IMG/VR virus record: IMGVR_UViG_3300035698_000885
Location: 1 to 24,185 of that record
Reading direction: 5' to 3' (one strand)
DNA from: a virus
Length of the DNA: 24,185 nucleotides
Shown here: piece by piece, positions 1,510 to 22,592 of the stretch
How positions within the stretch are numbered: the first letter of the stretch is position 1
Layout of the letters: every line of letters starts with the position of its first letter
Program-made: the position numbers and the translations under genes
Notes under the pieces: generated by a model
Database searches by the model: none
Told to the model about the DNA's origin: nothing
What the model saw: the letters and a program-made list of their open reading frames with translations, nothing else

Positions 1510-2160
1510 TTATAATAATGCTGCATGATATCTTTCTTTTCCGATTGTAACTATTGAAGCTCCTGTATAATGTATATTATCACCGACATCTGCTAATTCT
1601 TTACAAGTTGCTGTGTAAACATATTGATCTGTTATATATGTTGCTAAGTCATCAAAGACAACATTTTGAGCGTCCTCACCACCTTCTCTCAATTCTCCAA
1701 CAATCATAGGTGCTGTAGCTGATATGGTACTCTCTGCTCTTAACTGAGACATAAGAGTGTTGAAGTCAGTAGCATAATCAGCGTTTGACCTCGCATCATC
1801 AGATTCCCCTTGATTCCAAAGAACATAATCCACAGTAGTTACAGAGCTACATGTCAATTCACTCATAGCAGAAGCATACCTTGTTGATGTTGTCCCTGAA
1901 TCAACCCACTCTGAGATAGCCCTACTTCCAACTGCATCTAAAACAATTCTAACATTATCGCCTGTATCCACCTGTAACTGTTTTGCAAAGTGGAAAGCTA
2001 TATTGTTATGGTCAACCCCACCCATACTGGCTAAATTAGGGTCTGCTACCTCCCATTTTTGTCCATTCCAAAAGAAAACCTTGTTATTTACTGTTAAATC
2101 GCCACCACCTGTGGCTTTTGACCCTACCATATTAGATTGCCCCATTGCAAGTATGGTCAA
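1510..2160 (-). CDS. SGNH / sialate O-acetylesterase-like domain, in frame behind a stop codon
   Basis: The domain carries the serine-nucleophile block GQSNMVGS (Ser codon 2134-2136), the WNQGESDD block typical of sialate-O-acetylesterase-type SGNH hydrolases, and a C-terminal DNIHYTG with the Asp-His pair, so all catalytic residues are present. These enzymes remove acetyl groups from sugars; on phage fibres they trim host surface polysaccharide. The first possible start is TTG at 2160 with AGGG directly abutting it, and the first ATG (2145) falls right at GQSN, which would cut off the first strand (LTILAMGQSN). The frame is open back to the TGA at 2185-2187 that ends the LamG-like fibre. It was therefore probably the C-terminal domain of that fibre, reached by readthrough or recently separated. 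Confidence 0.75.
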   Translation of the reverse strand: MTILAMGQSNMVGSKATGGGDLTVNNKVFFWNGQKWEVADPNLASMGGVDHNNIAFHFAKQLQVDTGDNVRIVLDAVGSRAISEWVDSGTTSTRYASAMSELTCSSVTTVDYVLWNQGESDDARSNADYATDFNTLMSQLRAESTISATAPMIVGELREGGEDAQNVVFDDLATYITDQYVYTATCKELADVGDNIHYTGASIVTIGKERYHAALL

Positions 2161-2184
2161 CCCTGAATATGGAACAGCGTCAGG

Positions 2185-2187
2185 TCA
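2185..2187 (-). other. In-frame TGA between fibre and esterase domain
   Basis: The codons read ACA TGA CCT. Removing this one stop joins 404 upstream codons to 224 downstream codons in the same frame. TGA ends other genes here inside ATGA overlaps, so general reassignment of TGA is unlikely. Candidates are programmed readthrough, a nonsense mutation or a base-calling error. Confidence 0.7.
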
Positions 2188-3399
2188 TGTGATTGTCTCC
2201 CACTCTGCCTGTGTTTTTGGGTCACGTGGATAAAATATTATTTTTGATATTACTCCATTAAATCCACCAGAACCACCCGCATTATATGATCCTATATATA
2301 AAGCGCCAGTACCAAAAGCACCATCGTATGTAGATGTAGATGATGATGAAGTGTTTGAAGTTATTTGCATAACTGATCCACCCCAATAAAATACCGATTT
2401 AGAATAACCAATTAAACCAAGAGGCATCGTCCTTGAATTAGTACCATCTGTTGCAAGTAAAGACCCATTTGTTGAATAAAGAATCCTTACTCCGTTCGCA
2501 AATATTTGTGCAATACCATTTGTGGTATCGTTTGGTAGTAGTTGTGATTCCACATATATAGCACCAGAAGTATTCGTTATTAAAGTAGCCATATTAGTTG
2601 CATCTGCCCCTGCAAAAACCTGTACTTCTTTTGTCGCTCCACCCTCTATTGGATGAACACTCACTAATGTTTTACCATCATCCATCTGCGCCCAATCAAG
2701 ATAAACGGCATCTCCACTCGTAACAAGCCTAACTCCTAATTGTGGGTCTGTGACTGTTGGTAAAGTAGTCTGTGTCAAGTGCCAACCTGAGTCAGAATCA
2801 ACCTGAGTAGTCACATCAACCCATGTAGCTCCATTGTCCACGCAAACCTCGACTACTCCTGTACCAGTTTTACGTTTTATAAAAAATCCAGCAGCATGTG
2901 TACCACTTGCAGAAGTATAAACGTCATGGATTAAAGTACAATTCGCTCCAGAAGCAGTTAAAGTATTTTTATCAGCAACGGTTGTACCATCTATTAAGAC
3001 AACATTCCCAGCCGTTACAGAACCGTTTGCTGCTGTCCATTCCGCATGAGTGAAATCTCTATATGAAGCTGAGGTTACTACATTTGTTGCTTGAGGCCAT
3101 TCTGCAAGACCCATGCCCCCTGTAATAGGATCACCACCAGCATCAGTATTATAAAAATCTGAGCCATCCCATCTTGCTCCGTAAATCGCAGGTTTATTAA
3201 TAGGTATCTCGTTATAAACTCCCAAATTGTCTTTAACCCATATTACACTTGAACAAGCGTATGAACCTGAATAAGCCGTTAGCCAAGCCTCTATACTGGC
3301 TGATGATGTTAGGTCAAGTTCTATTGCACCAACTCCTGAACTCCCATCTATTGGAACAACAGCATCTCTTATCACATCTCTTATTATATTTCGTATCAT
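2185..3399 (-). CDS. Tail fibre/appendage protein with LamG-like C-terminal domain
   Basis: This 404-residue protein begins with a short amphipathic repeat (MIRNIIRDVIRDAV), a motif common at the start of phage appendage proteins. A beta-rich central part (about 115-250) resembles a carbohydrate-binding fold, with DNGATWVDVT and VYLDWAQMDDGK. A C-terminal concanavalin/LamG-like region (about 255-404) ends GFNGVISKIIFYPRDPKT. The ATG at 3399 follows AAGGTGG. The product is probably a receptor-binding appendage. It stops at TGA in the linker that would normally lead into the SGNH domain. Domain names are from fold-like patterns, not from a search. Confidence 0.7.
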   Translation of the reverse strand: MIRNIIRDVIRDAVVPIDGSSGVGAIELDLTSSASIEAWLTAYSGSYACSSVIWVKDNLGVYNEIPINKPAIYGARWDGSDFYNTDAGGDPITGGMGLAEWPQATNVVTSASYRDFTHAEWTAANGSVTAGNVVLIDGTTVADKNTLTASGANCTLIHDVYTSASGTHAAGFFIKRKTGTGVVEVCVDNGATWVDVTTQVDSDSGWHLTQTTLPTVTDPQLGVRLVTSGDAVYLDWAQMDDGKTLVSVHPIEGGATKEVQVFAGADATNMATLITNTSGAIYVESQLLPNDTTNGIAQIFANGVRILYSTNGSLLATDGTNSRTMPLGLIGYSKSVFYWGGSVMQITSNTSSSSTSTYDGAFGTGALYIGSYNAGGSGGFNGVISKIIFYPRDPKTQAEWETIT

Positions 3400-3413
3400 A
3401 AATCCACCTTTAA

Positions 3414-5009
3414 TTACCGTACAATTTCACAGACTACATCTCTGACAACAGGTTGAACAACATCACTCACCATACTTAGTCCTGTTGATTCTCCGCTATA
3501 ACTTAAATCAGCATTGCCACCAGCGCATAAATATTCTCCTGGATCACATATAATAACTATATCACCAGCATATATTAGGGTGGCATTTGAACCAGTATGT
3601 ATAAAGCTACCACTATCACTTCTTAATATTCTATTTGTACTAAGATTGTTATCAGTTCCTGTTAGAGAGAACGTGCCATTTTCAATATCTATAAGACTGT
3701 TTTCTCGTAGCGTAACATCAAAACCAGTTTGAGTATATGTTCCAGAGTCAGCAGAGATTGTTTTTGCTCCACCAAAGTTTACATCTGAACCTGTTAATAA
3801 ATACTCGCCTGTTTCTATGTCTATTACTCTGTCATAAAGAAATGATATGTCTGAGCCTGTTTGAGTATAAGTCCCACCATCTGCTGTTATTTTTCTATTA
3901 AAAAGTAAGCTTGCATCTGTACCTGTCTGAGAATATGTGCCTGAGTCAGCACCTACAAGAGAACCTTTTAATAAATCTGCTGCGATTCCTGTTTGTGCAA
4001 ATGTACCACTGTCTGCTGTTAATGTGTAACCGCCACTTGCTACTGGAAACTCAAAAGCACCAATATCAGTTGTTGTATCTTGTGGTCTTGATGTGCCTAT
4101 TATATCATCACTTGGTGCGCCTGTATTTGTTCCTGCATTATATAATTCAGAACTTGCATCTTTTACAGAAAAATCACCATTTGGTGCATCTGTTACAAGA
4201 GCTGCATAATCACTTGCTGTTTGTGTTATTTGAAAATTTCCTGTTCCTGTTTGAGCATCATCAGATGCGCTATATGTTACTGTATAAGTTGTAGCGCCTC
4301 TATCATCAAAATCATCTTGTGTATTAAATACCAGGGCATTTAAAATTGTAACAGTAACTAAATCAGCAGATGTAAAAATTCCATCATTCAAACAATCATA
4401 AACAGTAATATTCTTACAAGTTAAAGTAGAACCAGTAAAATCAAGTGCTCGTCTACTAATTGCATATATAATAGTATTTTCTATTTCTAAATTTGTAGTT
4501 GTCTGAATCCCTGAGATACCATGAGAAAGACCACCAGAGGCTGAACCGTTTGTTGTAATAATACAATGAGTAAGTCTTATTAAGTTATTTGTAGCAGTTT
4601 GGCTCCTTACAATAACACAAGTTTTATAAGTAGAAGATGAGTAAATAGTTTTTATTTGTAAGCCGATAACTGTTATATAATCTTCTCTAAGTTGTATAAC
4701 AGTATCATCTGTAACTTCAAGCCTATAAGCTGAAGTATCCCAAGAACCATCATGTCTATCAGCAGAATCAACTTGTATAACAATATCGTAAGTATCTGAA
4801 GTTGTCCAGCCAAGCCCAATTAATACAGTGGTTGTGTCAGCCGTTCCGGAGCTTGATTTACAATGGAAAATTATATTATCTTCATCAGAAACAAGGTCAG
4901 ATTCTCTTGCTGCTTCTGCTGCACTTAAAGAGGTATAAGCGTTTGTCCAATCAACACCAGTACCGCCACCAGTTGCATCAGGATCAATATATGCATTAAT
5001 TTCTGCCAT
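3414..5009 (-). CDS. Beta-helix tail protein with eight 22-residue C-terminal repeats
   Basis: In this 531-residue protein, residues 1-320 look like a right-handed parallel beta-helix of the pectate-lyase or Q-anchored type: an N-terminal AYIDPDATGGGTG cap, short strands such as LRLTHCIITT, LEIENTIIYA and LTCKNITVYD, then the TDIGAFEF ending found in such proteins. Residues 328-508 are eight repeats of about 22 residues with consensus ADSGTYxQTGxDxxLxxxRxI. The last 23 residues (VVQPVVRDVVCEIVR) resemble the first residues of the next gene product. It is probably a tail spike or fibre contacting polysaccharide. The start ATG overlaps the previous stop as TAATG. Confidence 0.7.
   Translation of the reverse strand: MAEINAYIDPDATGGGTGVDWTNAYTSLSAAEAARESDLVSDEDNIIFHCKSSSGTADTTTVLIGLGWTTSDTYDIVIQVDSADRHDGSWDTSAYRLEVTDDTVIQLREDYITVIGLQIKTIYSSSTYKTCVIVRSQTATNNLIRLTHCIITTNGSASGGLSHGISGIQTTTNLEIENTIIYAISRRALDFTGSTLTCKNITVYDCLNDGIFTSADLVTVTILNALVFNTQDDFDDRGATTYTVTYSASDDAQTGTGNFQITQTASDYAALVTDAPNGDFSVKDASSELYNAGTNTGAPSDDIIGTSRPQDTTTDIGAFEFPVASGGYTLTADSGTFAQTGIAADLLKGSLVGADSGTYSQTGTDASLLFNRKITADGGTYTQTGSDISFLYDRVIDIETGEYLLTGSDVNFGGAKTISADSGTYTQTGFDVTLRENSLIDIENGTFSLTGTDNNLSTNRILRSDSGSFIHTGSNATLIYAGDIVIICDPGEYLCAGGNADLSYSGESTGLSMVSDVVQPVVRDVVCEIVR
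3486..4028 (-). repeat. Eight protein-level repeats of about 66 bases
   Basis: Imperfect tandem units encode x-ADSGTYxQTG-x-D-x-L repeats at residues 328-508 of the beta-helix protein. Units are 22-25 residues. The DNA has diverged, so the repetition is clear mainly in translation. This repeat type is, to my knowledge, recurrent in phage appendage proteins. Confidence 0.8.
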
Positions 5010-12378: not shown

Positions 12379-13309
12379 ATTGCTGAGAATTTTTATATGC
12401 GTTAATTATTTCTTCATCTGATTTATCAGGATACATTGTTTTATACTGTTCAAGAATAGCAGGGTCTATCTCTGCTTGTGGTGTTAATGCCCCTTGATTA
12501 GCTCCCATGTCTGCTCCCATTGCTGCTACTTGTACTGCTTGTGGTGCTGTTTCATTAGGGTCAGGTGGTGTCTCAGGTGGTAATGGTTCTGTTCCAAGCT
12601 TATTCCCAACCATACCCATAGATTGCTCATAGTTAGCTCTTATCTTCGGTGGCATCTCGTCAGGACTACCATACTTATTAAGAGATGTTTTTATAAATTC
12701 CTGTGCGAGACTTATCTTTTCATAGTTTTCTTTTGCATCAGCTTTTGTTTGTTCTGCTAATAATTTTGCATCAGCTTTTTTCTGTGCTTGTCTCTCAGCT
12801 TCTAAATCTTTAACAGTTTTATAATTAGCACCTGATAATGCAGCAGACCGTTTACTCATATAAGTCTTATATTCTACTGCGTTCATTGCTGAAATTTTAT
12901 CAGGACTTTTTAATATATTAGGTGACAAACCAGTTTCTTTTATTGCCCAACTATGTAGATCGGCATAATCTTCTTGACTTGTATTCGGTAAAAATGATGC
13001 AATATTTGTTAATGCTTTCTTCATATTGTCTAATTTCTTACCTCTTACATCAGCTTTAGCCATTGCATTTTTAGATTCGTTTTCTGTTCTTTTCTGTATA
13101 CGTTCGTTTAATTTAGTTAGGTCAGACTTACCTTCTGCTTTTATAGCAACAGCTCCACCTACTCCTTTACCACGAGTATTTGCCAATGCTTCTGCTCTTG
13201 ATGGTATTCCTCTATCTCTTTTACTTTTACCAACTCTCACTCCACCACTACCTTGAAAAGATTTTCTTGATGCTAAAGCCTGTGCCATTATTTCTGGATA
13301 ATCTGCCAT
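12377..13309 (-). CDS. Internal virion / ejection-associated protein
   Basis: This 310-residue protein has a basic N-terminal half (VGKSKRDRGIPSRAEAL), a long Ala/Lys-rich helical region (about 165-205) and a Pro/Gln-rich acidic tail (PLPPETPPDPNETAPQ, then DPAILEQYKTMYPDKSDEEI). The tail pattern is common in phage internal proteins. It sits between the p32-like gene and the giant ejection protein, overlapping the former's stop as TAATG. It is probably part of the ejected complex. The name rests on neighbourhood and composition. Confidence 0.55.
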   Translation of the reverse strand: MADYPEIMAQALASRKSFQGSGGVRVGKSKRDRGIPSRAEALANTRGKGVGGAVAIKAEGKSDLTKLNERIQKRTENESKNAMAKADVRGKKLDNMKKALTNIASFLPNTSQEDYADLHSWAIKETGLSPNILKSPDKISAMNAVEYKTYMSKRSAALSGANYKTVKDLEAERQAQKKADAKLLAEQTKADAKENYEKISLAQEFIKTSLNKYGSPDEMPPKIRANYEQSMGMVGNKLGTEPLPPETPPDPNETAPQAVQVAAMGADMGANQGALTPQAEIDPAILEQYKTMYPDKSDEEIINAYKNSQQ

Positions 13310-14118
13310 TAGAAGTCCTCCCCTGCTTGAAATGCTGCATAAGCATAGTCTCTCTTTGATTTAGCAGCTTCTTGTTGTGCTATGATATCACCAGCAGCAA
13401 CCTGTCCACCTGAGTAAGCATTAACACCTGTTGTTTCTTCATTAGCTGATGCCTGAGTACCTCTAAATCCTTCATTAGCTTGATCACGCGCTCCTGTCAT
13501 ACCTATGTTACCCATTTGAGTGGAAGCCGTCATACCGTGACCAGACATTCTTTCTAACGGCTCCATTGATTCGTAATAACGTCTTAGAAAATTATCATAA
13601 TCCTCAGTAGCAAGATTCTGTGAGTACCTTTGTGATTCCTTAATAGCTCTACCACTTAATACTCCACCTCTTGCAGCAGCAGACCTCTCTACAGCTTTTT
13701 GTGCTTCATCTTGTCTGAATTGATAACCAGGACTTTCTTTAAATTCTCCAGGGCCAGCATCAATCTTTGACTGTAATTTACCCAAAGCATCAGTACCAGC
13801 CTGTCTCCAAGGTTGTAAATATCCTTGTGCTTGTTCCGTAGCAGCTTTAGTTCTTGCTTTGGAAATAGCTAAATTCGCTTTATATGAAGCAGAGTTTTTA
13901 ACAGCTTGAGCCTGTTGGACACCGCTTGCCATTCTCATTATTTCTGCTTGTCTTTTAGCAGATGCTTTTGTCTCTTGGTCTACTTTCATACGAGCTTTTT
14001 TTGCATCTAATTTAATCTGCCATAACTCGCCAATCTGACCAGTACGTTTACCTGGATTATTTTTTCTATACGTCCAGTTATTTGAATTTTGTATACGTTT
14101 CTCTCTTGCGGTAGTCAT
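13309..14118 (-). CDS. DNA transfer / injection protein, p32-like
   Basis: This 269-residue protein is mainly helical. Its core is QGYLQPWRQAGTDALGKLQ (about 98-116), then GPGEFKESPGYQFRQDEAQ and RSAAARGGVLSGRAIKESQR, followed by YDNFLRRYYESMEPLERM. This string of motifs is typical of phage proteins annotated as DNA transfer protein p32, which are packaged in the head and ejected. The C-terminus is Ala/Gln/Gly-rich. ATG overlaps the upstream stop (TAATG). It is the first of three adjacent ejection-type genes. Confidence 0.75.
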   Translation of the reverse strand: MTTAREKRIQNSNNWTYRKNNPGKRTGQIGELWQIKLDAKKARMKVDQETKASAKRQAEIMRMASGVQQAQAVKNSASYKANLAISKARTKAATEQAQGYLQPWRQAGTDALGKLQSKIDAGPGEFKESPGYQFRQDEAQKAVERSAAARGGVLSGRAIKESQRYSQNLATEDYDNFLRRYYESMEPLERMSGHGMTASTQMGNIGMTGARDQANEGFRGTQASANEETTGVNAYSGGQVAAGDIIAQQEAAKSKRDYAYAAFQAGEDF

Positions 14119-14450
14119 TATATCACCTCATATCCAGAAATCCTGCATCCGATTTTATTCGTTACTGATGCTAACATAGAAATAAACCCCCCTGATTCTA
14201 ATTCGTGATTAACAATATCTGGACAAGACCACGTTTCTCCTGCTCCTATCGGTTTCTCTTTAGTTATTCTATTGGCATAACCAGCAGAACCACCAGACGT
14301 TATTAAATTTATCGTTACTGTCACAACACCAGTATCGTCATTAGTAAATGTTGCTTTTTGTATAACTGTTCTTTTCGTTGATGTATAATAAGTAACAGCA
14401 GCATTTGTTAAAGGCACACCATCTACTATGGCTATTGGTACTGTTGACAT
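14118..14450 (-). CDS. Small beta-rich virion protein, paralogue of the 6506-6844 product
   Basis: This 110-residue protein has a beta pattern and shared motifs (TFTND, GAGETW, LESGGFISMLAS, ISGYEVI) relating it to the 112-residue product at 6506-6844. It starts after AAAGGAG and overlaps the next start by TAATG. Because it follows the Kelch-gp10 gene it may decorate the tail hub. Function is unknown. Confidence 0.6.
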   Translation of the reverse strand: MSTVPIAIVDGVPLTNAAVTYYTSTKRTVIQKATFTNDDTGVVTVTINLITSGGSAGYANRITKEKPIGAGETWSCPDIVNHELESGGFISMLASVTNKIGCRISGYEVI

Positions 14451-14460
14451 TAGTTCTCCT

Positions 14461-15768
14461 TTAGAATTTGCATGGTTTTAAATTACCATAAGCACCTATC
14501 AATACTATCTTAACAGGTTCTGTAATAGTGAGTTCGTATATTCTATTTCTTGATTTACCAAGACTTCTCCATAATGCTCTTGTTCCATATCCTTGATATT
14601 CTCCGATTGATGTAGAATATTCAGAACTCCAAGTATTCCCACCATCATCTGACCATCTCAATACTGCTTGTGGGTCATATCCATCTGCTGTGCTTGCAAC
14701 ATCTAATCCAACTCCTGCTTCAAATTCAACCTCAATTTTATTGTGCATAACATTAACTCGTTCTTTATTTAAAATCTGAGTTCTTCTTCTACGTTTAATA
14801 GCATCGCCGTTGTCTGTGTAGATATCCATATCAAGATAATATAACTTACCATTTGTCCTGCTTCCGATAATAGTCTTTCCAGCAAACAATATCCCACCAT
14901 CTATACCACTAATACCTTTGTGTTGACCATAACTGGCAGAATATTTTTCTGTAGTAACAACAGCAGAAGCTCCAGAAAGATAACCACCAAATGAAAGTCC
15001 ATTAGTTAAAGTTCCTGTTCCAGCACCGTAATAAACTGCCGTAGCTAAATCTCCACCAGCAGCCCACGCAGTACCGTTATATTCTTCTGTGCTTTTTATT
15101 GCCGTACCTAACTTTCTTCCACCAAAACTTAAAGCTGCTGCTAGTTCTCCTGCTCCAGAATGAAGTTCAACAACCGCACTTAAATCACCACCTGCTGACC
15201 AAGCTGTACCATTATACTCTTCTGTATTTACATCTTCTGGTTGAGAATTAGAAGCTCCGCCAAATGATAATCCTGCTGTTTGTAATCCACAACCAGCATT
15301 TTTATCTGTTGGTGTGTTTAAATTTCCGCCATTTGTCCAAGTTGTTCCATTATATTCTTCTGTTATAACTGACGCACTACCAGAAACATACCCACCAAAT
15401 GTCAGTCCTGCTGCCTGTACACCAGCACCACCAAAACTATTTCTTGATGTAGTTAAATCACCACCTGCTGACCAAGCTGTACCATTATACTCTTCTGTTA
15501 AAACATAACCAGTAACTCCGTTTGTTCCACCAACAGAAACTCCAGCAGTATTTAACCCAAAACCAGCTGTACCATATCTATCTATACTTGTACTCCCACC
15601 GATGCTCCATGCTGAACCATTATATTCTTCTGTTACTTTAGAATCAGCAAGAGATGTTGCTATTGGATCAGAACCACCGTTAAAACTCAAAGCAGCAGCA
15701 TATGTACCACAAGCAGATAGTCTGTATTTGCCAGTATTTAAATCTCCTCCTGTTGACCAGTTACCCAT
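14461..15768 (-). CDS. Kelch-like propeller fused to the C-terminal part of a gp10-like tail protein
   Basis: This 435-residue protein has six Kelch-like repeats of 45-50 residues at 4-281, with consensus TEEYNGTAWSAGGDL...GAGxxxAALSFGG, enough for one six-bladed beta-propeller. Residues about 282-435 match the C-terminal region of P22 gp10-type packaged-DNA-stabilisation proteins: NGKLYYLDMDIYTDNGDAI, RWSDDGGNTWS, ALWRSLGKSRNRIYELTIT and IVLIGAYGN. In the usual family these follow directly on the part seen here at 16426-17376. It has its own ATG and a GGAGG site with a 7-base spacer, so it looks functional. It probably forms the tail hub with the gp10 N-part, the propeller projecting outward. 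Confidence 0.75.
   Translation of the reverse strand: MGNWSTGGDLNTGKYRLSACGTYAAALSFNGGSDPIATSLADSKVTEEYNGSAWSIGGSTSIDRYGTAGFGLNTAGVSVGGTNGVTGYVLTEEYNGTAWSAGGDLTTSRNSFGGAGVQAAGLTFGGYVSGSASVITEEYNGTTWTNGGNLNTPTDKNAGCGLQTAGLSFGGASNSQPEDVNTEEYNGTAWSAGGDLSAVVELHSGAGELAAALSFGGRKLGTAIKSTEEYNGTAWAAGGDLATAVYYGAGTGTLTNGLSFGGYLSGASAVVTTEKYSASYGQHKGISGIDGGILFAGKTIIGSRTNGKLYYLDMDIYTDNGDAIKRRRRTQILNKERVNVMHNKIEVEFEAGVGLDVASTADGYDPQAVLRWSDDGGNTWSSEYSTSIGEYQGYGTRALWRSLGKSRNRIYELTITEPVKIVLIGAYGNLKPCKF
15180..15225 (-). repeat. 46-base exact repeat, copy 1
   Basis: Identical over 46 bases to 15453-15498. It spans the TEEYNGTAWSAGGDL junction at the start of blade 5. Confidence 0.9.
15453..15498 (-). repeat. 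46-base exact repeat, copy 2
   Basis: Identical over 46 bases to 15180-15225. It spans the start of blade 3, 273 bases away, which is exactly 91 codons, so recombination between the copies would add or remove two whole blades in frame. Confidence 0.9.
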
Positions 15769-16429
15769 TACAGACCTCCATTAATTGTGTTTGATTGTCC
15801 GCACTGTATGGCTTTAAAACTATACTTAAAACACCTTTATCTTTACAAGCTATAAGACCAGATTTTAATTGTCCTATTAGATTTTGTTTCTCAGAAGGAG
15901 AACCATTCTCTCCCATCTCAATAGCTTGATTTATCCATCTTTGCGTATAACTTATTAATTGGTGATTATCTACATTATCAAGTTCTATCTCTGTCATTTC
16001 TGCTGATTCTATACCTTTGATATCAGACCATTCTAAAAGCTCTCTAACTTTATGGGCAGCAGCACGTTTCATTTCTTTCAGTCCATATTTCTTTTGTTCT
16101 ATTTTTATTTCTAACAATTCTTTTTCTAAATCGTCTGACTCATTTATTAACTTTCTTTGTAGTTTTTTAAGTTTAACTTGTCCTATCCTATATTCAAACG
16201 ATAACGCAAGAGTACCACCCATCATAGTGTTTTGTTCTCTCATGGCTTGCCAATACTTACTTGCATGAGTAGGGAATTTTAAGTTATTAAGAACAGATAC
16301 GTCCATTTCAGTTCTTGTTCTATGGACTTGTACTTTTTTAAATGTCTCAGCTAATTCCGTATCAAGATTTTGCAATATCTGTAAATCGTTCTTAGAAAAT
16401 AGCTTTGAAGTCGTTAATTCTTTTATCAT
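15761..16429 (-). CDS. Coiled-coil phage protein of unknown function, lying between the two gp10 parts
   Basis: This 222-residue, mostly helical protein has KFPTHASKYWQAMREQNTMM at about 52-71 and a strong coiled coil at about 80-125 (VKLKKLQRKLINESDDLEKE). The RTRTEMDVSVLNNLKFPT-type opening is one I associate with uncharacterised proteins beside phage tail genes. It starts with an ATG that overlaps the stop of the gp10 N-part (ATGA), and its stop overlaps the Kelch-gp10 start by 8 bases, so the three are translationally coupled. It may be a chaperone or joining subunit for the split gp10; that is conjecture. Confidence 0.55.
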   Translation of the reverse strand: MIKELTTSKLFSKNDLQILQNLDTELAETFKKVQVHRTRTEMDVSVLNNLKFPTHASKYWQAMREQNTMMGGTLALSFEYRIGQVKLKKLQRKLINESDDLEKELLEIKIEQKKYGLKEMKRAAAHKVRELLEWSDIKGIESAEMTEIELDNVDNHQLISYTQRWINQAIEMGENGSPSEKQNLIGQLKSGLIACKDKGVLSIVLKPYSADNQTQLMEVCNG

Positions 16430-17376
16430 TCCACACTACTCCATTCATGCCACATGCCTGTTTTAACATTACATACCCAAGTTTTATCCTCAGAAGGGAA
16501 ATCTATTACATAAAAAACCATACCCTCTAACGTGTATGTATACCCTACCGCATCATCAGTTGTACTATAGGTTGAGATTTGATAATTAATACCTATTGTA
16601 GACATAACTTCAAAGCCATATCCCTCTGATTTTCCTACTGTTAGGTCATCTGTAAGCCAATATAAAACACCTTCTATTTCTGCAAGTGATGTTAATGATT
16701 CACAACCTATGTCTATAATTGCTCCAGGTACTCTCTCAAATGGGAAATCTGCATTACCTGAGTTATAATAAATCTCTGTCGTGTGATCTCCGAATAACCA
16801 TATATTTTGTCGTGTTGAACCGATACCAACTAAATTATCAGGAGAGGCTTCTGCTGTAATAAAATCTAAAGCATCCCATGTATTACCATCATAAAGCTTA
16901 GAGATATTCATCTTCCCTGTATTTAAGACAGTTACACAAAAATAACCATCAAAGAATATACAATCTGTAGCTGCTGGAAAATCTGCATCTGCAATAACAA
17001 CCATTGCACCACCAGAAACTATATAACCAGAAGTAGTGCCGTCACATATTAATGTTTGTGTTCCGTTGGTAGCCATACCGACATGACCAGTTGCGGTTGT
17101 TATTGTCCCTAAACTTGTAGCAGTGCCAGCTTCTGTTACTTCATATACAGTAGCACCGACAACCGCATAGAGTTTATCTCTCATTACATGAAGTCCACGA
17201 ACAATAGCTGATGTAGCAGGTTCGCTGAATACTCCAAGTCCTGGTGTATTAAACATGGCAATAACAGATTTACTTTCCTCATTCGTATCAAGAACAGGAA
17301 ATAAATTTATGCTCTGTTGAGCATTTAAGCTCTTAGAACGCCCCTCATAAGCCATTCCTAAAAACGGAATCTCCAA
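16426..17376 (-). CDS. N-terminal part of a P22 gp10-like tail hub / packaged-DNA stabilisation protein
   Basis: This 316-residue protein opens IPFLGMAYEGRSKSLNAQQS and INLFPV, the usual start of the family, followed by FNTPGLGVF, beta repeats with IVRGLHVMRDKLYAVVG, NLVGIGSTRQNIWLFGDHTTEI and CNVKTGMWHEWSS. In gp10-type proteins the chain continues for roughly 150 residues with a WSDDGG domain; here it ends at TGA two residues after MWHEWSS, and that domain appears on the Kelch fusion at 14461-15768. The TTG start at 17376 keeps the conserved IPFLG and has GGGGG upstream. The family closes the portal and holds DNA in the head. Confidence 0.75.
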   Translation of the reverse strand: MEIPFLGMAYEGRSKSLNAQQSINLFPVLDTNEESKSVIAMFNTPGLGVFSEPATSAIVRGLHVMRDKLYAVVGATVYEVTEAGTATSLGTITTATGHVGMATNGTQTLICDGTTSGYIVSGGAMVVIADADFPAATDCIFFDGYFCVTVLNTGKMNISKLYDGNTWDALDFITAEASPDNLVGIGSTRQNIWLFGDHTTEIYYNSGNADFPFERVPGAIIDIGCESLTSLAEIEGVLYWLTDDLTVGKSEGYGFEVMSTIGINYQISTYSTTDDAVGYTYTLEGMVFYVIDFPSEDKTWVCNVKTGMWHEWSSVE

Positions 17377-17377
17377 T

Positions 17378-18316
17378 TTACACCCCCATATCTGGTTGAA
17401 AGTAAGTTGAAGCTTTCTCTGTATCGTATGTCTCTGCCATCCATAAAGCTGTCTTGGCTTCTTCTTTTAAATTCTTATCTACTTCTGCACCTTTTTTGAT
17501 AGCTATTCTGATAGCAAGATTTAACACTATTGCGTCTATCCATTCTTGTGGAAATTCAGCAGTATCCGCAGAAGCATCGAAATCTGATATTGGTTTTTTG
17601 ATAGTCATTTTGATAGTTGTTTTTGGTTCGATATTGGTAGGCCATACATAAAACTTTCCGTTAGATAGTTGTGGGTCATACCAAAATTGTGTTACAATCC
17701 CTGTACTTGTCTTGTCAGATAGTTGCATATATTCTTCTCTTGATATTCTCGTAAGAGGAATTTCATTACCACTATCAGCTACACTACGAGCCTCAACTAT
17801 CTCTATTGGTCTTTGTGCTTTTGATGTATAACTATATACGTTATTGTCTATTGCACAAGCTCCTGTTAAAGCTGCTGTTAAAGTCACTGTATTGACTGCT
17901 GGTGCGCCGTTTATAGTAGTCCATTGTATTGTGTTGTCATCAAGCTCTATGCCTATATAATCGCCTGTTGTGAGTCCAGAAATGCTATCTACGTCTATAG
18001 TTAAGTCTGTTGCTATCCCTGCCACTTTTAATTCAGTCTTTGAAGCATCTGAGGTAGTTGTAAAGTTATCTCCTGTTGCTCCCAAAGAATAAGATTCTCC
18101 TTCGTAAGAAAGGAATAGTGTGCATTTCTGATTAAGCCATAACCCTATATTACGAGTCTGCCAACCCTTTAGCATTGTATTTAAAGTAAACCTACCATCT
18201 GCGTATTCATTTGTAGTAGGAGTTTCACCAACAGCAACAGCACCAATATATTTATAAGCATCTGTTATAAGTTCATCGCTTGATGGATTAAAATCGTATG
18301 AGCCTGATATTGTCAT
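17378..18316 (-). CDS. P22 gp4-like head-tail adaptor
   Basis: In this 312-residue protein, residues about 10-70 are helical, as in the portal-binding part of gp4-like adaptors (ELITDAYKYIGAVAVGETPT, LNTMLKGWQ). A beta insert at about 88-165 (VDSISGLTTGDYIGIEL) looks like a small Ig-type domain. The region EEYMQLSDKTSTGIVTQFWY and GKFYVWPT, then EFPQEWIDAIVLNLAIRIA, is typical of this family. Adaptors of this type attach below the portal and are needed to close the filled head. It has a GGAG site and ends one base before the gp10-like TTG, consistent with partner genes made together. Confidence 0.75.
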   Translation of the reverse strand: MTISGSYDFNPSSDELITDAYKYIGAVAVGETPTTNEYADGRFTLNTMLKGWQTRNIGLWLNQKCTLFLSYEGESYSLGATGDNFTTTSDASKTELKVAGIATDLTIDVDSISGLTTGDYIGIELDDNTIQWTTINGAPAVNTVTLTAALTGACAIDNNVYSYTSKAQRPIEIVEARSVADSGNEIPLTRISREEYMQLSDKTSTGIVTQFWYDPQLSNGKFYVWPTNIEPKTTIKMTIKKPISDFDASADTAEFPQEWIDAIVLNLAIRIAIKKGAEVDKNLKEEAKTALWMAETYDTEKASTYFQPDMGV

Positions 18317-18324
18317 GTTATCTC

Positions 18325-18561
18325 CTACAAGTCACTACTTGTAACTTCGTTATCAGACAGAAAATAGTCTGTTGGTTGTGGTCTTGGTTCGTTTACAGCT
18401 TGTTTATCTGCTTTCGCTTTAACAAAGTCCTGTGGTTGTCTTGTTTCGAAATCTTCTTTACATACCCATAGACCATCCCAAGTCTTGCGAGTTTCACTTT
18501 GTCTAAAGCGTTTTCCGCATCTATCACAAATTCTCCAAAACTCTCCAGGTATATAAGTCAT
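18325..18561 (-). CDS. Small Cys-finger phage protein
   Basis: In this 78-residue protein, residues 11-45 contain ICDRCGKRF, a WDGLWVC stretch and DFETRQPQDFVK. This resembles a small finger protein often found beside phage adaptor genes, in which CxxC and a later CxxC or C-x-x-D hold zinc; here the second pair appears as CKED, one cysteine short. The C-terminus is polar. No strong ribosome site is seen. A structural zinc site is likely, but the role is unknown. Confidence 0.6.
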   Translation of the reverse strand: MTYIPGEFWRICDRCGKRFRQSETRKTWDGLWVCKEDFETRQPQDFVKAKADKQAVNEPRPQPTDYFLSDNEVTSSDL

Positions 18562-18563
18562 GT

Positions 18564-18752
18564 TTAATTCTTTTTATTAAATATTGTATTAATTATCTTT
18601 TGTGCTTTGTTTTCTTTAGCCTCTTTATTTATCTCTATATATATTTCTTTTGTGTCACTATTAAATATAACTTGTGTTACATCTAATATACCCACATCCA
18701 TAATATGCTCTTTCCCATCTACTTCATCTGGTTGGAAATTCAGTCTTGCCAT
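18564..18752 (-). CDS. 62-residue protein of unknown function
   Basis: It starts within the last 29 bases of the O-antigen-ligase-like gene, with a good AGGAG-TTATC-ATG signal. The product has a short polar N-terminus, a beta hairpin (VTQVIFNSDTKEIYIEIN) and a lysine-rich helix. No motif is recognised. The overlap and ribosome site support expression. Confidence 0.5.
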   Translation of the reverse strand: MARLNFQPDEVDGKEHIMDVGILDVTQVIFNSDTKEIYIEINKEAKENKAQKIINTIFNKKN

Positions 18753-19743
18753 GATAACTCCTATCTATTATTGCAATCCATGTTAAAATCATATAAGCTG
18801 TTACTGCAATATGTAATGGAAAGTTTACAAAGCAGTTTATTAATATTATAATTGATGCTACTACTAATATATCGTTTGCTTTCTTTAGCCTTATCCTTAG
18901 TGCTAATAAAAATCCTATTAATATAATTATAAAGGGCATACCCATTTCAAAAATTCCTTGGACATATTCGTTATGTGCTGTTGGCATCCATACACCTCTA
19001 CCACCTATATCAATATTCACAAATATATATTTCCAATGTCCGATACCTGACCCTAATAATGGGTGCTGGATATATAACTTAGCAGCTACTACCCATGTGT
19101 CCCATCTATGAATTATACCTGGGGTATCTATAAGTAAGAAACCTATTAGTAATAAAACGAATACTCCAACAACAACTCTTTTATCTATCTTATTCCAAGA
19201 GTAATATAACCCACCAATAATAACAGCAAGCACACCACCGAATGATTTAGATAATGCTAACCCTACCAAAACAATAGGTATTAATAACCACCATTTCTTT
19301 CTTAAAAAAGCAGGAAAGCATAGTGCTAATACGGCAGATGTCTCGTTTTGATTACCCATAACACCAGTGCAAAGGTCTTTAGCTCCATTACTTAATGGAT
19401 CGAACAATGGGTCTATATTTAAAAATTGTAAACATAAAAAGAAAACATTAACCATTGCAATTAAACACATTGCATTTAAGATTAAATCAACATCTCCTTT
19501 CTCATACACAACATAATACCAAAGCAACCCATAAAATACTGCGTGTGATGCTAAGAAAGTTGCTTTATCATATTGTGGGAATAAGGAGGATATACAAACA
19601 ATGATAGCAAACATAGCCATCCATTTATTTATCCCCCATAGTAAATACGCAAAAACAGCATAAGCTCCAACCTCTGCGAGAAGCTGAAACGATATCCTAA
19701 GATCATCTGTAGGAAATCTAAATACCGCAATAGTAAATAGCAC
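18724..19743 (-). CDS. O-antigen ligase / polymerase-like (Wzy_C) membrane protein
   Basis: This 339-residue protein has about ten hydrophobic segments. It carries two signatures of the O-antigen ligase/Wzy family: TGVMGNQNETSAVLALCFPAF in the middle and, in the large loop, GSGIGHWKYIF then TAHNEYVQGIFEMGMPFI, matching the HNxxLxxxxExG motif. The family joins or polymerises O-antigen chains at the periplasmic face of the inner membrane. The GTG at 19743 lies inside a hydrophobic stretch with no ribosome site. The frame is open upstream through KVIITKQYRILIPI, with no ATG, GTG or TTG, so an ATT or ATA start near 19776-19779 would give a proper basic-then-hydrophobic first helix. It may alter host surface sugars after infection. 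Confidence 0.75.
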   Translation of the reverse strand: MLFTIAVFRFPTDDLRISFQLLAEVGAYAVFAYLLWGINKWMAMFAIIVCISSLFPQYDKATFLASHAVFYGLLWYYVVYEKGDVDLILNAMCLIAMVNVFFLCLQFLNIDPLFDPLSNGAKDLCTGVMGNQNETSAVLALCFPAFLRKKWWLLIPIVLVGLALSKSFGGVLAVIIGGLYYSWNKIDKRVVVGVFVLLLIGFLLIDTPGIIHRWDTWVVAAKLYIQHPLLGSGIGHWKYIFVNIDIGGRGVWMPTAHNEYVQGIFEMGMPFIIILIGFLLALRIRLKKANDILVVASIIILINCFVNFPLHIAVTAYMILTWIAIIDRSYHGKTEFPTR

Positions 19744-21373: not shown

Positions 21374-21976
21374 TTAGATACCTGTAGTGTATCGTTGTGT
21401 ATGTAAATTAATCATAACTTCCCACTTAGCATTAACACCAATAGCGTTATCAACTCGGTTGACAAGTCTTAGTATTTTCAACTGTAATGCGTTAGTATGA
21501 ATAGTGCCTGTATCAAGTTCCGCTCCACTCTTTCCAGATGTGGTAGAACCAGAATCAGTATAAACCAAAGATGCGTTAAGCCCTACAGATGTAGCTGCTA
21601 ATTCGGCAGCAGCGTCACTCTCCTCCTGAATCTCAAATACAAGGTCAGGGTCATCTGCAACATAAGCAATACGTTCTGTGCTTGCTTCGTTATAAGTTTT
21701 TGTTAAGTCAGTTGGTAGCGGATTAAACCCTACTATTACTCCTGATATATAACTTGAACCAGCAGCAGTAGCTTTGTTAATAGTTGGTAATGTTCCAGGC
21801 ATATTCCCTTTATATTCCAAAAGGTTTGCCGTTCCAGTTATGATAACTGGATCACCAACGAACATAGCTGTTGCATAATCTGACCTAAGATAATACGCAG
21901 TAACCGCACCGTTGTAAGGCGCACCGTTCTTATCCTTTATTGGTACTAACCCCAATGGGGTATCTGTGTTAGCCAT
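21374..21976 (-). CDS. Capsid cement / decoration protein, copy 2
   Basis: This 200-residue protein starts MANTDTPLGLVPIKDKNGAP, with NKATAAGSSYISGVIVGFN, ERIAYVADDPDLVFEIQEE and a C-terminal KWEVMINLHTQRYTTG. It belongs to the small phage proteins annotated as structural cement protein Gp24-like, which sit next to the capsid gene and brace the capsid. It is a paralogue of the next gene upstream, with the same GGAGTGAAATAAATG start signal. Both are complete. Confidence 0.65.
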   Translation of the reverse strand: MANTDTPLGLVPIKDKNGAPYNGAVTAYYLRSDYATAMFVGDPVIITGTANLLEYKGNMPGTLPTINKATAAGSSYISGVIVGFNPLPTDLTKTYNEASTERIAYVADDPDLVFEIQEESDAAAELAATSVGLNASLVYTDSGSTTSGKSGAELDTGTIHTNALQLKILRLVNRVDNAIGVNAKWEVMINLHTQRYTTGI

Positions 21977-21989
21977 TTATTTCACTCCT

Positions 21990-22592
21990 TTAAAAACCTG
22001 TTGTGTACCTCTGAGAATGAAGATTTATCATAACTTCCCATTTAGCATGGTCGCCAATAAGATTCCCCTCTCTGTTAACAAGTTTCAATATTTTTAACTT
22101 AAAAGTAGCAGTAGTAGCAGCACCAGAACTATCAAGTTCCATGCCACTCTTACCAGATATAGTTGAACCACTATGTGTATAAACTAACTGGGCATTGTTA
22201 CCAACATCAGTTTCGTCCATTGCAGCCCCACCACTATCTTCTTGAATTTCAAAAACAAGGTCTGGATTATCTGCAACATAGGCAATACGTTCATTCTTAG
22301 CTGGATTATAAGTTTTCGTAAGGTCATCTGCATCTACATCGAACCCCACAATAAACCCAGTTAGATATGTACTTCCAGCAGCAGTCGCCTTATTAATCTC
22401 AGGTAACGTACCTGGTTCATTGCCTTTATATATAGTGTCATTTGATGTGCCTGATATTAGAACAGCATCACCGATAAACATTGCTACATCGTAATCAGCA
22501 GCAAGGTAATAAGCGTTTACAGCTCCATTATATGGCTCACCGTTCCTGTGTCTTATAGGCACTCCACCTAAAGGTGAATCATTGTTAGCCAT
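21990..22592 (-). CDS. Capsid cement / decoration protein, copy 1
   Basis: This 200-residue protein resembles its neighbour along the full length; by eye more than half of positions agree, with conserved GAPYNGAV/GEPYNGAV, NKATAAGS, KTYN, ERIAYVAD and WEVMINLH. The two have the same ribosome site and are adjacent with a 13-base gap, so they look like a tandem duplication that has since diverged. They could form a mixed shell or be used at different capsid sites. Confidence 0.65.
   Translation of the reverse strand: MANNDSPLGGVPIRHRNGEPYNGAVNAYYLAADYDVAMFIGDAVLISGTSNDTIYKGNEPGTLPEINKATAAGSTYLTGFIVGFDVDADDLTKTYNPAKNERIAYVADNPDLVFEIQEDSGGAAMDETDVGNNAQLVYTHSGSTISGKSGMELDSSGAATTATFKLKILKLVNREGNLIGDHAKWEVMINLHSQRYTTGF

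Follow-up and report, generated by a model that had tools for sequence, protein, structure and literature searches.

Gene order at the hub locus

The window analyzed here is the complete 24,185-nt stretch taken from IMG/VR virus record IMGVR_UViG_3300035698_000885. From the ORFs and profile matches, the order of genes on its minus strand was a gp4-type adaptor, the N-terminal half of a gp10-type hub (chain A), a 222-aa product labeled CC (a putative coiled coil), a Kelch propeller followed by the C-terminal half of the hub (chain B), ds1, and ds2 (Table 1). The three ORFs of the initial annotation were present with TTG, ATG, and ATG starts, with an overlap of 4 nt between the chain A and CC genes and of 8 nt between the CC and chain B genes. 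The TTG start of chain A occupies the same position as the MEIPF start of intact relatives, and the chain ends in MWHEWSSVE, two residues past the MWHEWSS motif, as had been annotated. The adaptor contains an extra repeat-like insert of ~75 aa. It adjoins the hub in the window and likewise in the split relatives described below, and is expected to be the partner of the hub platform.

Table 1. Features of the hub locus in the window
Feature	Coordinates	Strand	Basis
gp4-like head-tail adaptor	17378..18316	-	PF24175 (SU10_adaptor fold), E 3e-9; phrog_637 (Ad3 head-tail adaptor), E 2e-5
Hub chain A, 316 aa, N-terminal two-thirds of gp10-type hub	16426..17376	-	TTG start; phrog_578
ATGA stop/start overlap, chain A/CC gene	16426..16429	-	Sequence
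CC gene, 222 aa, ATG start	15761..16429	-	ORF; aligns with four orthologues
GGAGG, ribosome-binding-like, 6 nt upstream of chain B ATG	15775..15779	-	Sequence
Chain B gene (Kelch and hub-C), 435 aa, ATG start	14461..15768	-	ORF
Predicted six-blade Kelch head, N-terminal part of chain B	14950..15768	-	phrog_27227, E 6e-53; Keap1 fold match
hub-C, C-terminal third of gp10-type hub, behind Kelch head	14461..14934	-	phrog_578; 9vyg
ds1	14118-14450	-	
ds2, ejection protein	13309-14118	-	

Two chains match complementary parts of one hub

The initial annotation had proposed that the hub is split in two, with its C-terminal half placed behind a Kelch propeller, and the profile of the P22 gp10 family, phrog_578, bore this out. 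Residues 1 to 314 of chain A matched profile positions 4 to 325 of 486 (E 5.6e-72), and residues 293 to 430 of chain B matched positions 338 to 469 (E 9.7e-29), the two chains tiling the profile with zero overlap between the matched ranges. Both pieces also matched by sequence the solved hub chains of the cyanophages Pan3 and Pam1; against the Pan3 stabilization protein (9vyg), the E value was 2e-17 for chain A and 3e-5 for hub-C (9vyg 326-430). The search with PF11134 that had been suggested for both proteins gave only 19.9 bits for chain A, below the curated cut-off of 25, and zero match for the hub-C part of chain B. The gp10 identity of the proteins was upheld through phrog_578, but not through PF11134, which was set aside as an uninformative test of the C half in favor of phrog_578 and the solved gp10-type chains. 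Gp10-type hubs are otherwise single polypeptides; in the window, the CC gene separates the genes of two chains. The sequence comparisons confirmed a hub of gp10 type that would be made as two separate chains.

Location of the break within the predicted hub structure

Intact relatives of the hub (470 to 475 aa; L001, L002, and L008 to L014) were found, as the initial annotation had recommended checking. Their N halves are 61 to 62% identical to that of the window, and they share its C domain. Aligned with a 475-aa relative, the break falls between residues 316 and 323. The intact L001 hub, to which the window chains are ~62% identical, was modeled with AlphaFold2 from 81 sequences (pLDDT 91.6; pTM 0.90), and a Foldseek search with the model returned P22 gp10 (8eap; TM 0.85/0.86) as well as Pan3, Pam1, and Sf6 gp8. 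The model contains six four-stranded blades at residues 58 to 90, 99 to 126, 136 to 174, 182 to 221, 232 to 257, and 277 to 316, followed by three strands at 333 to 353 and then the C-terminal domain. By the strand pattern of this predicted structure, the break lies within the linker that follows the sixth of these blades. From the strand count and the analogy with T7 gp12 and SU10, hub-C would supply most of blade 7 and the platform. The split members keep the propeller strands with which hub-C starts (GKTIIG..NGKLYYLD). The AlphaFold2 model of chain B was discarded as a guide to the folding of hub-C, where its pLDDT was mostly <60.

Recurrence of the split and selection on both halves

Further loci (L numbers) were taken from pattern scans of IMG/VR and mapped with hub-N, hub-C, CC, and Kelch profiles; they form a biased sample in which several share contigs. 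The identical break was found in 15 other IMG/VR contigs from different samples. It was accompanied by CC and Kelch in L004, L005, L007, L081 (which ends before hub-C), L083, L085/L137, L092, L095, and L153, and occurred without CC, with an RCC1-type head (Pfam RCC1, E 5e-22 to 5e-58), in L138, L144, L146, L149, L152, and L164. With the window included, there were thus ten Kelch-headed and six RCC1-headed split loci. A single origin of the split was not rejected on the N-half tree (AU p 0.50). L170 was considered as a headless split and left out of the count: its halves share one frame, with a single in-frame TGA between them (L170:6001-7458), for which a nonsense mutation, a sequencing error, and recoding are all possible.

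In split sister pairs, omega was 0.04 to 0.12 in both hub halves, synonymous changes far exceeding amino acid changes, which indicates purifying selection on each half. No second intact gp10 was found in 12 split contigs of up to 47.6 kb, which are possibly incomplete, and no Rfam family matched window positions 14000 to 18400, so that no intron or RNA element was found there. Among 50,697 isolate phage records (INPHARED), no split hub was seen; among the matches listed, the N and C matches adjoin as in an intact gene. The same records gave zero matches to the CC family and to the Kelch part of the window.

Propeller heads and their exchange

By its predicted fold (AlphaFold2 and Foldseek), the window head is a Kelch propeller of six blades, matching the Kelch domain of Keap1 (E 9e-16; TM 0.77 on the target) and KLHL Kelch domains as well. 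None of the Pfam Kelch models matched it, and the Kelch assignment of the initial annotation is therefore supported by fold and not by Pfam sequence profile. The C half carries a propeller head in all cases, which is of Kelch type in ten loci and RCC1 type in six, with both in tandem in one contig.

On the N-half tree (50 rows), opposite heads were found in the sister pairs or nearest kin L092/L149, L004/L146, L007/L152, L005/L164, and L137/L138, and the number of head changes was at least 6, no fewer than with shuffled labels. In the pair L092 (CC and Kelch) and L149 (RCC1), which come from one sample, identity was 94.6% across 944 nt of the N gene and 92.6% across 217 nt at the start of hub-C; the rest was unalignable. 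Hub-C identity tracked hub-N identity (rho 0.57, for pairs that are non-independent) and was 66% in same-head pairs versus 67% in different-head pairs; the C half thus appears to follow the N half rather than the head. The CC genes of L092 and L137 were 88% identical but their N halves only 69%, which suggests that the CC-Kelch cassette has moved between hub lineages. Since the head types are scrambled, the L092/L149 pair differs in its head, and the C half tracks the N half, the comparisons strongly support a swappable head on a two-chain hub. The suggestion in the initial annotation of a swappable propeller is in keeping with this alternation of Kelch and RCC1 heads on closely related hubs.

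Modular exchange of a head on a constant anchor, a criterion of phage receptor-binding proteins, was found here. From their fold and exchange pattern, the heads most likely bind a variable cell-surface ligand, i.e., act in direct adhesion. The window also has other fiber-like genes at 1510 to 5009, so that the role of main receptor-binding protein does not necessarily fall to the Kelch head.

CC accompanies Kelch heads

CC fills the slot between the hub halves in 10/10 Kelch-headed split loci and in 0/6 RCC1-only loci. It was also absent from the remainder of four RCC1-type contigs searched; in the search of RCC1-type and intact-hub contigs, which found no CC, the alignment was built from true members and run without a positive control. 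A Kelch gene was present in 57/64 CC loci (not deduplicated), mostly in phages without a gp10-type hub, and in 0/146 hub loci without CC. A scan of genome contigs with the CC profile gave three matches, none with a split hub in the profile map. CC is best read from these gene associations as a Kelch-specific partner, possibly a chaperone or accessory of the head. This uncharacterized family, found in many phage contigs, would thereby gain its first functional context. In the unrelated phages L096 to L130, genes of the CC family are flanked by Kelch tail genes on one side and by runs of ~200-aa genes on the other; the ~200-aa genes scanned from L126 and L115 are 2OG-Fe(II) oxygenases.

Possible tandem heads

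In L085 (L085:5672-8134), a gene for Kelch and hub-C is followed by a gene for RCC1 and a second hub-C, which runs off the contig end. Contig L006, from the same sample, starts with a hub-C (positions 1 to 402) and shares an exact 78-nt overlap with the end of L085. The first hub-C of L085 is 90% identical to the L006 copy over 406 nt, and the two copies inside L085 share 99% identity across 132 nt at the hub-C start. The sequences are consistent with two heads in tandem, joined across two contigs. Two hub-C copies are present both in L085/L006 and in L164. It is conceivable, if on balance doubtful, that L085 with L006, and possibly L164, encode alternative hub-C chains that give mixed heads on each virion or allow switching by hub-C recombination. 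If so, the tail hub would be a multihead or switchable adhesin platform, with the near-identical hub-C segments as recombination sites.

A probable two-chain hub and its alternatives

The gp10-type hub of these podoviruses is probably a two-chain protein, reassembled in trans, with an exchangeable head on chain B that serves adhesion. The platform strands at the N-terminus and six blades of the propeller would come from chain A. Chain B would complete the propeller with its final strands, provide the C-terminal platform, and carry a separate propeller head on its new N-terminus. In this proposal, the chains join in trans beneath the gp4-type adaptor to rebuild the usual ring, from which up to six heads might hang, in six-fold display, where the chains cross between blades 6 and 7. 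Kelch heads would bring their own partner gene, CC, and RCC1 heads would come without it. Heads would be swapped by recombination at two points, the end of chain A and the beginning of the hub-C segment, with both hub halves retained. Adhesion by the head would thus be built into the hub, replacing or adding to separate tail spikes.

One objection is that an insertion merely broke gp10, or that the break is an assembly artifact, as might be thought from the isolate phages matched at both ends, which have an intact hub. This is scarcely credible, given the recurrence of the break in 15 further contigs of different sample origin, omega values well below 1 in both halves, the coupled starts of consecutive genes, and the lack of an intron or RNA family in the region and of a spare gp10 in the split contigs searched. 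Decay was ruled out on the recurrence, omega, and the absence of a second gp10, in agreement with the initial annotation, which had read the locus as a working rearrangement. Its further suggestion, that the coiled-coil protein joins the parts, fared differently. CC does lie between both chains in all ten Kelch-headed loci, but a bridge between chain A and chain B is very improbable, because RCC1-headed split hubs exist without CC and CC accompanies Kelch genes in unrelated tail contexts that have no gp10; the protein was accordingly rejected as a joiner.

More weight attaches to the idea that chain A alone closes as a hub and chain B is a separate fiber, with hub-C serving only as an anchor on the adaptor. 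Because the break coincides exactly with a blade boundary, chain A might form a full propeller of six blades by itself, and hub-C might be a domain in its own right; the two hub-C copies of L085/L006 and L164 would also fit an anchor more easily. This arrangement is nevertheless unlikely, as the split members conserve the starting strands of hub-C, which would be expected of strands that still close the propeller, and hub-C co-evolves with chain A. Rather less likely still is a real two-chain hub whose heads serve another role, such as blocking of the hub, virion stability, or attachment of a further fiber. Head function is argued from fold and exchange pattern, and other fiber-like genes are present in the window, but the repeated exchange of unrelated propellers on near-constant hubs is the usual signature of a host recognition module. 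The two-chain hub with an adhesive, exchangeable head is preferred to all of these.

Comparison with known tail proteins

In podovirus tails, the gp10-type hub is a conserved component, made as a single chain, that seals the packaged DNA. The hubs of P22 (gp10), Sf6 (gp8), Pam1, and Pan3 (phrog_578, PF11134; "head closure Hc3" or "packaged DNA stabilization protein") belong to the same family and fold as that of the window, and P22 gp10-type hubs likewise lie beside a gp4-type adaptor and upstream of ejection proteins. The known hubs are one chain and headless, whereas the hub of the window is divided between two chains and bears a propeller head at the N-terminus of the second. No account of a split gp10, or of Kelch or RCC1 heads on the hub, was found in open-licence papers.

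T7 gp12 and the SU10 nozzle combine a propeller with a platform and take extra domains at the boundaries between blades. Their propeller is seven-bladed, with one blade closed by strands from both chain ends (PMC6702177, PMC9509320). In T7, a fiber dock at the end of the propeller connects it to the platform; in SU10, the dock is on blade 1 (PMC6702177, PMC9509320). Unlike the split hub, both are single chains, their extra domains are Ig-like or at the tip, their fibers are separate proteins, and head exchange does not appear in the passages compared. Modular tail fibers and spikes generally have a conserved N-terminal anchor and a swapped C-terminal receptor domain (PMC10386132). The split hub shares with them a constant anchor and a frequently exchanged head but with reversed polarity, the head being N-terminal and the anchor C-terminal, and its anchor is a piece of the hub. 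Kelch tail proteins of phrog_27227 with CC neighbors (e.g., L088 and L089) have the same Kelch repeats and CC family but are not fused to a hub half and occur in other tail contexts.

The viruses with the split hub form a family of uncultured short-tailed bacterial viruses in which the head resembles a natural plug-in system for altering what the virus binds. A core podovirus tail part could then survive being broken between blades and make use of it. Such a natural two-piece design would allow the adhesive head to be exchanged with the hub untouched, and the swap pairs make the idea testable in vitro.

Related hub elaborations and other genes

Inserts near residues 120 to 170 of the N half were found in the unsplit hubs of L040, L049, L051, L058, and L075, and also, with EPTP-like repeats, in the split L005 and L164. 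Other hubs had inserts within hub-C (L062, L171, and L175) or N-terminal extensions (L035, L063, and L184). L060 and L072, considered as members of the same split, were kept separate, being distant hubs that break elsewhere and carry different heads. In L072 (L072:3354-9424), the distant hub has foreign domains at its end and is accompanied by two more genes, each ending in a hub-C fragment, one of them with a weak SPRY-like domain (PF00622, E 1e-4); by its gene layout, this appears to be another multihead arrangement with a different break point.

The gp4 adaptor has a repeat-like insert (TIDVDSITGLSSGDSIGIKLDDDTIQWTTINGAP and variants) that is also present in several copies in the hub insert of L005 (window 17378-18316; L005:2024-4525; L085:2452-4053), so that one domain seems to decorate two structural proteins. 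The structural module of the window also contains a 339-aa membrane-like protein (18724-19743) weakly resembling O-antigen ligases/polymerases (PF04932, E 9e-4, below the cut-off), which could modify host surface glycans. The fiber-like region begins with a SASA-family carbohydrate acetylesterase (1510-2160; PF03629, E 2e-25), for which the phrog_17635 annotation is tail fiber, followed by two further fiber-like genes at 2185 to 5009. Beside the capsid gene, the adjacent genes at 21374 to 21976 and 21990 to 22592 encode tandem paralogues of 200 aa with 68% DNA identity over 631 nt.
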